Source of the DNA: Gammaproteobacteria bacterium
GTDB taxonomy: Bacteria; Pseudomonadota; Gammaproteobacteria; Enterobacterales; Kangiellaceae
Direction: 5' to 3'
Assembly: GCA_030432465.1 (NCBI GenBank)
Contig: JAUIHB010000003.1
Location: 1 to 41,896 of the forward strand
DNA length: 41,896 nucleotides
Part shown: one piece after another, positions 14,221 to 39,512 of the stretch
Layout: each line of letters opens with the position of its first letter
Position numbering within the stretch: position 1 is the first letter of the stretch
Made by a program: the position numbers and the translations under genes
The notes under the pieces: generated by a model
Database searches by the model: none
What the model was told of the DNA's origin: nothing
Seen by the model: only the letters and a program-made list of their open reading frames with translations

Positions 14221-14282
14221 TGTTTATAACTAATTGAAAAATAAAGCAGTAAGTATCTTAACTATTAAGTGACTTGTTGCCT

Positions 14283-14301
14283 ATGCGACCAATTGTCGCA
14301 T
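14283..14301. promoter_or_regulatory. RegA/PrrA/RegR-box-like palindrome
   Basis: ATGCGAC, five bases CAATT, GTCGCAT: a perfect 7-base inverted repeat between the copper receptor and the regB-like gene. It fits the half sites GNGRC-N5-GNCGC described for RegA/RegR-type regulators. It lies 63 bases upstream of the receptor start and about 140 upstream of regB. Confidence 0.6.
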
Positions 14302-14440
14302 CAGTCTTTGATATGGAGCTGATAGAATAAAGCGATTCGCAATTGATAAGTTGTTAAGATGACAAAATAGCGGTTAAATCTGGTTAGCTGCTAAATTTGA
14401 AGAGTTGTTAAACCTGAATGTTTGCTAAGTTTGAACAGAA

Positions 14441-17586: not shown

Positions 17587-17721
17587 ATGAAACGTAAACC
17601 AGATATATTAGTAGTACTGGCTGCGTTACTTGGTATTGGCATGATTTTGTCGAGTTTTAGCGGTGTAAGTATTGCACAAAACTCAAACGATACAGCAGTT
17701 CAAGTTTCAGCAGTTAAATAG
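17587..17721 (+). CDS. 44-residue single-span membrane or secreted peptide
   Basis: A short frame with a good GGAG ribosome binding site 6 bases before ATG. The peptide starts MKRKPD, continues with a hydrophobic stretch of about 20 residues (ILVVLAALLGIGMIL and on), and ends in a short polar tail rich in Ser, Gln and Val. The positive-inside start and single hydrophobic span make an inner-membrane peptide likely. A signal-peptide reading with cleavage after SIA is also possible. I do not recognise a family. It stands alone between rpiA and fau. Confidence 0.6.
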   Translation: MKRKPDILVVLAALLGIGMILSSFSGVSIAQNSNDTAVQVSAVK

Positions 17722-37979: not shown

Positions 37980-39512
37980 ATGCCAAACCTTCAAATCAAT
38001 CAAGATGACATTAACAAAGCGGTGTGGAATGCTTGTGATACTTTCCGCGGGGTCATCAGCTCAGATACCTATAAAGACTTTGTTTTGACTATGTTGTTTT
38101 TAAAGTACATCTCTGATGTGTACCAAGATGAGTATGAGCAGTTAGTTAAAACCCATGGTGACAATCCTGAGCTTATCCACGCCATGATGGCAAAGCAGCG
38201 ATTTGTACTGCCACAAGGGGCTAGTTTTTGGGATTTGTATGAGCAACGTCACCAGCCGGGCAATGGCCAACGCATAGACCAAGCGCTACACGCGATTGAA
38301 GAAACCAATGGGGCTAAGCTTAAAAATGTGTTCCAAGATATTAGCTTTAATACCGATAAATTAGGCCCAGAAAAACAGAAAAACGATCTATTACGTCATT
38401 TACTTGAAGACTTTGGTAAAGACCTGCTTAATTTGCGTCCAAGCCGTGTGGGTAGCCTTGATATTATTGGTAATGCTTATGAGTATTTAATTAAACATTT
38501 TGCCGCTGGCTCGGGTAAAACCGCAGGTGAATTTTATACCCCTCCAGAAGTATCTGACTTATTAGCGGCTATTTTAGAGCCCGCTGAAGGGGATGAAATT
38601 TGTGATCCGGCATGTGGTTCGGGCTCTTTGTTAATGAAGTGTGGCCGCATGGTGCGTAATTCATTTAACGGCTCTAAAAAGTATGCCTTATTTGGCCAAG
38701 AAGCCATCGGCTCTACTTGGGCGCTGGCTAAAATGAATATGTTCCTGCATGGCGAAGATAATCACCGCATTGAATGGGGAGACACTATTCGTAACCCACT
38801 GTTAAAAACTAAAGAAGGTGATGCACTGCTGCATTTTGATGTGGTGACCGCTAACCCGCCCTTTAGTCTTGATAAATGGGGGCATGAAGATGCCGCCAGC
38901 GACATTTATGGTCGATTCCGTCGTGGCGTACCGCCAAAAACCAAAGGTGATTATGCGTTTATTAGTCACATGATTGAAACGCTTAAACCTGCTAGTCATG
39001 GAAAGATGGGGGGAAGAATGGGCGTGGTTGTGCCTCATGGTGTGCTATTCCGCGCGTCTAGCGAGGGCAAAATTCGTCAACAACTGATTGAAGAAAACCT
39101 GTTAGACACAGTCATTGGCCTTCCTGAAAAACTGTTTTTTGGCACCGGTATTCCAGCCGCTATTTTGTTGTTTAAGAAGAATAAAACTGATGACAAAGTC
39201 TTGTTTATTGATGCCAGCCGCGAATTTAAATCGGGCAAAAATCAGAATCAGTTAACTCCAGAAAATATTCAAAAGGTCATCAACACCTACAAAAGCCGTG
39301 AAACCACAGATAAGTATTCTTATTTAGCCAGTTTTGACGAAATTAGAGAAAATGACTTTAACCTTAATATTCCGCGTTATGTGGATACTTTTGAGGAAGA
39401 AGCTGAAATTGATTTAGTGGCCGTTCGTAAGGAACGACTGCAATTGCAAGACGAGTTAAAAACGCTTGAAGTGGAAATGGAAGGTTATTTGAAGGAGTTG
39501 GGGTATGAGTAA
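37980..39512 (+). CDS. hsdM: type I DNA methyltransferase subunit HsdM
   Basis: A 510-residue N6-adenine methyltransferase subunit. The HsdM N-terminal helical domain reads NKAVWNACDTFRGVI and LKYISDVYQDEY. The AdoMet motif I is DPACGSGSLL (209-218), preceded by AGEFYTPPEVS, and the catalytic motif IV is NPPF (292-295). It methylates adenine in the target set by HsdS, protecting DNA. Its last codons overlap the start of the rhuM-like gene by 8 bases. The 42 bases at its 3' end recur before hsdS at 41501-41542. Confidence 0.96.
   Translation: MPNLQINQDDINKAVWNACDTFRGVISSDTYKDFVLTMLFLKYISDVYQDEYEQLVKTHGDNPELIHAMMAKQRFVLPQGASFWDLYEQRHQPGNGQRIDQALHAIEETNGAKLKNVFQDISFNTDKLGPEKQKNDLLRHLLEDFGKDLLNLRPSRVGSLDIIGNAYEYLIKHFAAGSGKTAGEFYTPPEVSDLLAAILEPAEGDEICDPACGSGSLLMKCGRMVRNSFNGSKKYALFGQEAIGSTWALAKMNMFLHGEDNHRIEWGDTIRNPLLKTKEGDALLHFDVVTANPPFSLDKWGHEDAASDIYGRFRRGVPPKTKGDYAFISHMIETLKPASHGKMGGRMGVVVPHGVLFRASSEGKIRQQLIEENLLDTVIGLPEKLFFGTGIPAAILLFKKNKTDDKVLFIDASREFKSGKNQNQLTPENIQKVINTYKSRETTDKYSYLASFDEIRENDFNLNIPRYVDTFEEEAEIDLVAVRKERLQLQDELKTLEVEMEGYLKELGYE
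39465..39506 (+). repeat. hsdM 3'-end repeat, copy A
   Basis: Forty-two bases coding LEVEMEGYLKELGY and the coupling ATG. Copy B at 41501-41542 is identical at 38 of 42 positions and leads into hsdS in the same way. Confidence 0.92.

Follow-up and report, generated by a model that had tools for sequence, protein, structure and literature searches.

RegB-type sensor kinases respond to the quinone pool and, via a cysteine, to oxygen, and the copper chaperone gene senC shares a transcript with regB, regA or both in group 1 species, Rhodobacter among them, according to the parts of the literature source compared (PMC9147068). The pairs RegB/RegA, PrrB/PrrA, ActS/ActR, RegS/RegR and RoxS/RoxR share with the pair described here the quinone heptapeptide, the H-box, a redox cysteine and the same helix-turn-helix (HTH), and the PrrA and RegR consensus sequences, as excerpted from PMC5506826, consist, like the site here, of two half sites 5 nt apart. 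They differ in that an outer-membrane (OM) copper receptor is not named among the targets of these systems in the portions of the literature compared.

OM copper import in Gram-negative bacteria, and how it is switched on, is poorly known. In the excerpts compared, the published controls are copper repression (of NosA, and of CrtA through CruR) and the anaerobic expression or induction of OprC and NosA, for which no regulator is named (PMC8610252); the accessible text of this OprC paper contains no occurrence of RegA. The CrtA/PepSY_TM system is similar to our locus in that it provides heme-copper oxidases with copper taken up across the OM (PMC12914433, in part), and at one locus described below regA and a RegA-box-like site are followed by the gene of a CrtA ortholog. 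However, the receptor studied here is OprC-like rather than CrtA-like, and the published control of CrtA is copper-responsive. In Methylomonas sp. DH-1, RegA activates the metal import operon feo, and a TonB receptor gene is expressed at a lower level in the regA mutant, but the metal is iron and no RegA binding occurred at the promoter of that receptor gene (PMC13274454, parts compared). RegR of Bradyrhizobium japonicum binds at the nosR promoter and acts as a positive regulator of the copper homeostasis genes copCAB, whereas an OM receptor is absent from its targets as described in the sections compared (PMC4064962). In a search of the open-access (PMC) literature, as far as its text was accessible, we found no report of a RegA site at an OM copper receptor, in line with the original prediction, which knew of no description of such an arrangement. 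Because none of the compared papers contains such a site, the arrangement looks new within known regulation: the site at the receptor appears to be the new element, and the type of regulation itself is already known.

The receptor and the RegB/RegA-like pair

We analyzed a stretch of 41,896 nucleotides from a gammaproteobacterium of the Kangiellaceae (hereafter, the window), in which a TonB-dependent receptor gene is divergent from a kinase–regulator gene pair (Table 1).

Table 1. Features of the receptor/regBA locus in the window. The two hexamers are putative promoter elements.
Feature	Position	Strand	Basis
OprC/NosA-like TonB-dependent receptor, 691 aa	12145..14220	-	TIGR01778, 433.5 bits; OprC best solved relative
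-10-like hexamer TAAGAT, candidate receptor promoter	14255..14260	-	23 nt from palindrome edge; box centre near -44
Palindrome, RegA-box-like: ATGCGAC-CAATT-GTCGCAT	14283..14301	.	Exact match; 16/24 invariant columns
-10-like hexamer TAGAAT, candidate regB promoter	14323..14328	+	22 nt from palindrome edge; box centre near -43
RegB/PrrB/ActS-like sensor kinase, 447 aa	14441..15784	+	NF033792, 174 bits; GGSSNPF, HELGTP, Cys
RegA/PrrA/ActR-like response regulator, 179 aa	15826..16365	+	NF033791, 161 bits; HTH match PDB 3rqi, 1umq

The best NCBIfam family of the receptor, by far, was TonB-copper TIGR01778, with a score under the curated cut-off of 472.45 bits, and its best relative with a solved structure was OprC (E 3.7e-66). 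Like OprC and NosA, the receptor is of the TIGR01778 type and has the PNRM and HxM ligand motifs. Three of the four copper ligands of OprC (Met, His, Met) were kept in all ten receptors compared (see below), whereas the position of the fourth, Cys, was occupied by Gly in all ten; the full CxxxM-HxM copper site is therefore absent. The label of copper receptor given in the original prediction was thus supported by the family and structural matches and weakened by the curated cut-off and the missing Cys. The C143A mutant of OprC is described, in the part of the paper compared, as losing Cu(II) binding and still binding Ag(I), a stand-in for Cu(I) (PMC8610252). Because the Cys that OprC requires for Cu(II) is Gly here, we predict that the receptor would take up Cu(I), which is the state to be expected in a reducing environment. 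Copper itself is the presumed substrate, and its transport is predicted from this kinship.

The kinase and the regulator had as their best families ActS/PrrB/RegB and ActR/PrrA/RegA, respectively, each with a score below the family cut-off (350 and 250 bits). No genome among the 44 of the class with an OprC match reached the RegA cut-off, which therefore seems adjusted to a different clade, and hence we call the proteins RegB/RegA-like. The kinase has the quinone heptapeptide GGSSNPF, the H-box HELGTP and a downstream Cys in QVCRGII, and the Cys, GG and NPF residues were all invariant among 13 aligned kinases; kinase identity outside the close group was about 25–41%. The predicted presence of the heptapeptide and the Cys was thereby confirmed, and a redox role would be expected of the Cys; by the same token, the window kinase would probably sense quinones. 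Since these residues are those of the known kinases, RegA phosphorylation would be expected with a reduced pool. The regulator HTH was aligned without gaps with that of PrrA (PDB 1umq) through ...ARxLxMHRRTLQRxLAKR, which bears out the nearly invariant RegA HTH claimed for it, and it also matched PDB 3rqi.

The translated window RegA contains no Cys, and the pre-HTH Cys156 that is invariant in group 1 is absent. Copper sensing via Cys156 was therefore rejected, and the Cu/O2 disulfide route of R. capsulatus RegA, as described in the parts of PMC9147068 compared, cannot apply. The direct neighbours scanned around the pair were the receptor, a thioesterase and rpiA, with no senC linkage of the group 1 kind among them. 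In several relatives a small cytochrome c gene lies directly 3' of regA (L047:7856-8302, L057:9204-9647, L059:8342-8779); the window has no such gene at this position. An open frame of 44 residues (MKRKPDILVVLAALLGIG...) at 17587-17721 of the window, 5' of rpiA, recurs in one other genome (G001; frame end, L058:13410-13691).

The palindrome and its distance to both predicted promoters

The 220-bp gap between the start of the receptor gene (14220, minus strand) and that of the kinase gene (14441, plus strand) contains the palindrome ATGCGAC-N5-GTCGCAT exactly as it had been reported. Its core, TGCGAC-N5-GTCGCA, corresponds to TGCGACCAATTGTCGCA at 14284-14300. The window holds this single exact copy and one further match with three mismatches at 38953-38971. 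Compared with the consensus sequences as quoted in the part of PMC5506826 available, the palindrome agreed with PrrA at 11/12 informative positions and with RegR at 10/11 in the better orientation and 8/11 in the other, so the claimed fit to RegA/RegR-type half sites stands. From this fit, the palindrome is a putative RegA binding site. In its own genome, loose matches were not enriched over a reversed control (28 vs 34 at ≤1 mismatch; 555 vs 717 at ≤3 mismatches). Judged by its conservation in relatives, the palindrome is more than a chance occurrence, even though the genome as a whole shows no excess of the motif taken by itself, and the box alone is too loose for target prediction within a single genome.

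Conservation was scored as TGYGAC-N5-GTCRCA with ≤1 mismatch (hereafter, the box). A kinase search of 61 genomes returned 30 RegB-like loci, all of which were read. The box was directly 5' of regB in 18 of them and, in two (G021, G024), 5' of a gene that stands before regB in the same orientation; in the other ten no box was found near regB. The search for the receptor covered 20 genomes, the own genome among them, and detected it at E <1e-40 in ten, every time adjoining regB. Loss of the palindrome in relatives that keep both genes had been named as evidence against the prediction, and the box was present in all ten genomes with receptor and regB. An additional named genome, L133, has both receptor and box, and among the 14 closest genomes four (G003, G008, G021, G024) keep the box without the receptor.

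In the alignment of the ten receptor/regB gaps, 24/402 columns were invariant: 16 in the palindrome, three in the receptor-side hexamer (14255, 14259 and 14260), three in the regB-side hexamer and two elsewhere. The genomes are related and not independent, and outside the palindrome and the -10-like hexamers the gaps barely align. On the OM-gene side, TAnnnT was located exactly 23 nt from the palindrome edge in 14/14 loci (ten receptors and four barrels, the latter described below). On the regB side, it was found at an offset of 22–24 in 12/18 loci, that is, in all 12 close genomes and in none of the six more distant ones. The background rate per other offset was 0.017. In L133 the hexamers are TATCAT (offset 23, receptor side) and TAATGT (offset 24, regB side). 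A generic promoter scan of the receptor/regB gap returned no -35/-10 pair. If the hexamers are -10 elements, they place the predicted start sites such that the palindrome is centred around -43/-44 in both promoters, a position from which an activator can replace the -35 element. The palindrome thus looks like an activator site common to the receptor and regBA promoters, and from its position we infer activation rather than repression.

Recurrence of the box at regBA and import genes

We examined wider sets with permuted half sites as controls, using random picks of distinct permutations (150 for the regB and OprC sets, 200 for the barrel set); a few upstream regions in these sets were shortened by contig ends. 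The named set comprised 79 regB loci found by kinase alignment, 13 of them on contigs of the first set. A box within 400 bp 5' of regB was present in 40/79 loci (permuted-motif mean, 0.73), and in 29/66 outside the first set, as 11 of the 40 boxed loci already belonged to it. The boxed loci were from Pandoraea (19), Kangiellaceae-like (12) and Amphritea-like (7) genomes, Psychrobium and Limnobacter. The half-site gap was 5 in 40/40 of them, and other gaps from 0 to 13 gave 0–1 loci each. On the regB side, TAnnnT at 22/23 was found in 18 of the 40; the 22 without it included all 19 Pandoraea loci. The highest single permutations at ≤1 mismatch reached 34/79 (regB), 4/42 (OprC) and 14/30 (barrel), which we attribute to their resemblance to the true motif.

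A search of 369 genomes of the class gave an OprC match in 44, and 42 of the 43 non-own genomes were tested; this set had not been used to define the motif. The box was upstream of OprC in 6/42, each time with TAnnnT at 22/23 (6/6; permuted means, 0.21 and 0.03), and was absent from the other 36 upstream regions. At ≤2 mismatches the box alone was weak, its 6/42 being equalled by 22/150 permutations. The flanks read around the six boxed receptors contained no regBA. RegA was found in 5/6 boxed genomes vs 9/36 unboxed genomes (one-sided Fisher p 0.011), and was not found in the remaining boxed genome. A single cluster of one genome (G142) holds an OprC-type receptor, regBA and a box.

In four genomes of the related genus g5, the receptor is replaced by another OM protein of 327–353 aa (hereafter, the barrel), with the palindrome and a -10-like hexamer at 23 nt on the barrel side. 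In G021 and G024 the gene preceding regB in the same orientation belongs to this family and again has the box and the spacing; the barrel of Aliikangiella coralliicola (G003) is located elsewhere, with a palindrome of its own. Receptor and barrel occurred together in none of the 20 genomes searched with both queries. At class level, the barrel matched in 56/369 genomes, of which 30 were tested. The box was found in 15/30 (permuted mean, 0.25) and, together with TAnnnT at 22/23, in 12 of these (permuted mean, 0.08), and the other 15 regions had no box; because L297 (G198) encodes a protein also present in the query alignment, the count excluding it is 14/29. Eight of the 30 barrel genes were divergent from a RegB-like kinase gene, with the box in 8/8 and the spacing in 7/8. 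OprC and barrel co-occurred in two class genomes vs 6.7 expected from their frequencies (by arithmetic, with thresholds that differ between the two). The barrel on a Ruegeria plasmid had no upstream box at ≤2 mismatches.

Across the 14 closest genomes, the motif TGYGACNWWTTGTCRCA (≤1 mismatch) gave 34 forward and 30 reverse matches vs 12 forward and 5 reverse with the reversed control, counts that include the regBA-adjacent sites from which the motif was built. Twenty regions around motif places were read, and ten gave the genes reported here; the other ten (L091, L092, L094, L097-L103) had no consistent target and were counted as chance. Families were checked for NosR and NosZ of G001, two TonB receptors (G003, G001), one DUF2202 protein and the cytochrome c'. 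The own genome has a box 5' of a gene for a 784-aa TonB receptor, together with a PepSY_TM protein gene; this receptor was found in 3/24 genomes and had a box in all three. In G003 the box precedes a TonB receptor gene whose downstream neighbour encodes a protein matching PepSY below the threshold, and in G001 it precedes another TonB receptor gene. A further match in the own genome, GCGACATGACGTCGC (C87), falls within the coding frame of a TonB receptor; we discarded it as a chance occurrence. A box is also found 5' of a cytochrome c' gene in G005 and of a DUF2202 protein gene in G021 and G024. The DUF2202 proteins (L088:4884-5579, L089:5661-6356, L133:6450-7139, L295:5507-6223; PF09968 confirmed for L089, L133 and L295) have the box upstream in three genomes, and in the fourth the gene is beside a boxed OprC-type receptor.

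A scan for the palindrome near respiratory genes had been proposed; box-like sites recurred at nosR, and coxB did not hold as a target. Box-like sites accompanied nosR-nosZ in G001, G002, G006 and also G024, that is, in all four nosR genomes among 24 searched, at the frame start or just 5' of it; two were exact palindromes, and NosR and NosZ of G001 had equivalog scores. Because TAnnnT at 22/23 was found in 0/4 of these sites, we consider nosR a likely target of the box and no more. The own genome (83% complete) gave no nosR match. As a conserved target, coxB was rejected, since a like site about 200 bp upstream was present in only 2/18 loci (G000, G005), with unrelated two-mismatch matches in two more. 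The half-conserved form TGCGAC-N5-GTCTCT about 200 bp 5' of coxB was seen at G000:C239:6676 (L053:4677) and in L212 among the 18 coxB loci.

Copper-handling genes adjoin regBA in other lineages. In Herbaspirillum sp. 3R11 (L167), regA is followed by a box, a gene for a TonB receptor matching CrtA and a PepSY_TM gene, in that order; the receptor aligned over its length with the CrtA crystal structure PDB 9rvq at 822 bits, and TAGCAT lies at 23 nt. (9RVQ and 9RVX are CrtA structures according to the data statement of the CrtA paper, the part of it used here.) The box after regA was also seen in L178 and in Glaciimonas L199; across Herbaspirillum it was there in only 2/20 loci. In Pandoraea (L147 was read in detail), it lies between regB and a divergent gene for a PCuAC copper chaperone, with the -10 spacing on neither side. 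In Limnobacter (L205), it is 5' of regB with TACAAT at 22, and PCuAC comes after regA. The Psychrobium box (L171) separates regB from a divergently oriented TonB receptor gene and has TACACT at 22. In most of the 79 named loci, none of the genes searched for was beside regBA. A copper-handling neighbour of regBA thus recurs, and the gene differs by lineage. A protein of 406–438 aa (best match, sub-threshold BNR) was repeatedly encoded after TonB receptor genes near regBA or a box (L095:1187-2407, L171:342-1649, L201:1895-3136, L087:7426-8742), with a thioredoxin-like gene behind it in two cases.

A predicted redox control of copper import and its alternatives

The comparison establishes, at the level of genome sequence, that the site is conserved, that its -10 spacing is fixed on the OM-gene side, and that it recurs with RegA, OM import and some copper genes. 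From this we consider it quite probable that RegA binds the palindrome and activates the divergent receptor and regBA promoters, with quinone sensing by RegB raising the receptor level for copper-dependent respiratory enzymes. In this mechanism, the neighbouring RegA-like regulator would bind the palindrome, about 43–44 bp 5' of each predicted start, and the bound protein would stand in for the -35 element. It would thereby activate the OprC/NosA-type receptor promoter and, within this group, the regB-regA promoter as well. RegB would sense the redox state of the quinones and, with a reduced pool or scarce oxygen, would phosphorylate RegA; receptor synthesis would then rise under respiratory stress or low oxygen, supplying copper to copper-dependent respiratory enzymes. 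The original prediction that copper uptake is tied to the redox state of the quinone pool is supported by the comparison, with copper as substrate, the quinone signal and the binding by RegA as its predicted elements. It required one qualification: the link to the receptor held (spacing in all ten), but in this group the box also appears to serve regBA itself.

That the palindrome might serve only the autoregulation of regBA, with the receptor as a bystander, is suggested by the boxes at regB without a receptor in G003, G008 and distant genomes and by the frequency of the box 5' of regB in the named loci (40/79). However, the -10 spacing is fixed on the OM-gene side (14/14) and missing in 6/18 loci on the regB side, and OprC and barrel genes without adjacent regBA show the same box and spacing; we regard this alternative as highly improbable. 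Binding of the site by another regulator, either of the CRP/FNR type or another Fis-type response regulator, seems very unlikely as well. CRP/FNR-type half sites are TGTGA/TCACA-like, and the arms of the variant TGTGAC-N5-GTCACA do resemble a CRP site. In this notation, however, CRP spacing corresponds to N4, which was found in 0/79 regB-upstream and 0/42 OprC regions, and a CRP-like site was rejected on this half-site spacing. The GCGAC/GTCGC form fits the PrrA and RegR consensuses, and boxes cluster at regBA loci and in genomes that carry RegA.

A different kind of alternative accepts the control by RegA and assigns the receptor another substrate, either a non-copper compound or a copper chelate instead of copper ions. 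The receptor scores under the TIGR01778 cut-off and has Gly in place of the Cys ligand in 10/10, and CrtA takes up chelated copper (PMC12914433, as described in the part compared). We nevertheless think this rather unlikely, given that OprC is the best structural relative, that the Met and HxM ligands are kept in 10/10, and that a CrtA ortholog and PCuAC chaperones are found at other boxed regBA loci. Finally, a palindrome of this kind could arise by chance, as about 2.6 perfect 7+7 repeats with a 5-nt gap are expected by arithmetic in 41.9 kb (4^-7 per position), or about 0.013 per 220-bp gap. Its sequence and position are conserved in 10/10 receptor/regB gaps that are otherwise barely alignable; chance origin was rejected on this conservation, and its probability is practically negligible.

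RegA control of the receptor, if true, places a redox regulator at an importer promoter and would let copper supply follow respiratory demand; it could also explain the anaerobic induction of OprC/NosA. The box with its -10 spacing offers a usable site model for RegA-like regulators outside the alphaproteobacteria; one study could not derive a motif for Acidithiobacillus RegA, according to the portion of PMC5506826 compared. As a tentative extension, somewhat short of probable, RegB/RegA may act as a redox-gated switch of OM copper acquisition across gamma- and betaproteobacteria. A single promoter design (TGCGAC-N5-GTCRCA, -10 at 22–23 nt) would then drive interchangeable importers: OprC-type receptors, CrtA-type receptors and the Met-rich barrel (the RPDSHAPIGVMGDH family, possibly a new copper importer), with the receptor of the window being Cu(I)-selective.

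The Met-rich barrel family is accordingly flagged as a candidate new copper importer, a function predicted from its position, Met content and exchange with OprC. Eight aligned members, one of them on a Ruegeria plasmid, have 13 invariant Met residues, and Met makes up 5.8–7.1% of the residues. Profile search returned no PDB relative, and the four members scanned had no NCBIfam match; two members matched Pfam Phenol_MetA_deg above the cut-off of 22 (22.7 and 31.2 bits). The family has an SHAPIGVMGDH motif and alternating Met residues in MDMDMHM and LMLM segments (members at L093:3496-4509, L033:2885-3868, L288:1878-2909, L046:2305-3504 and relatives). It is also found on Ruegeria, Methylocystis and Methylosinus plasmids, annotated as a transporter, alpha-amylase or outer membrane beta-barrel protein.
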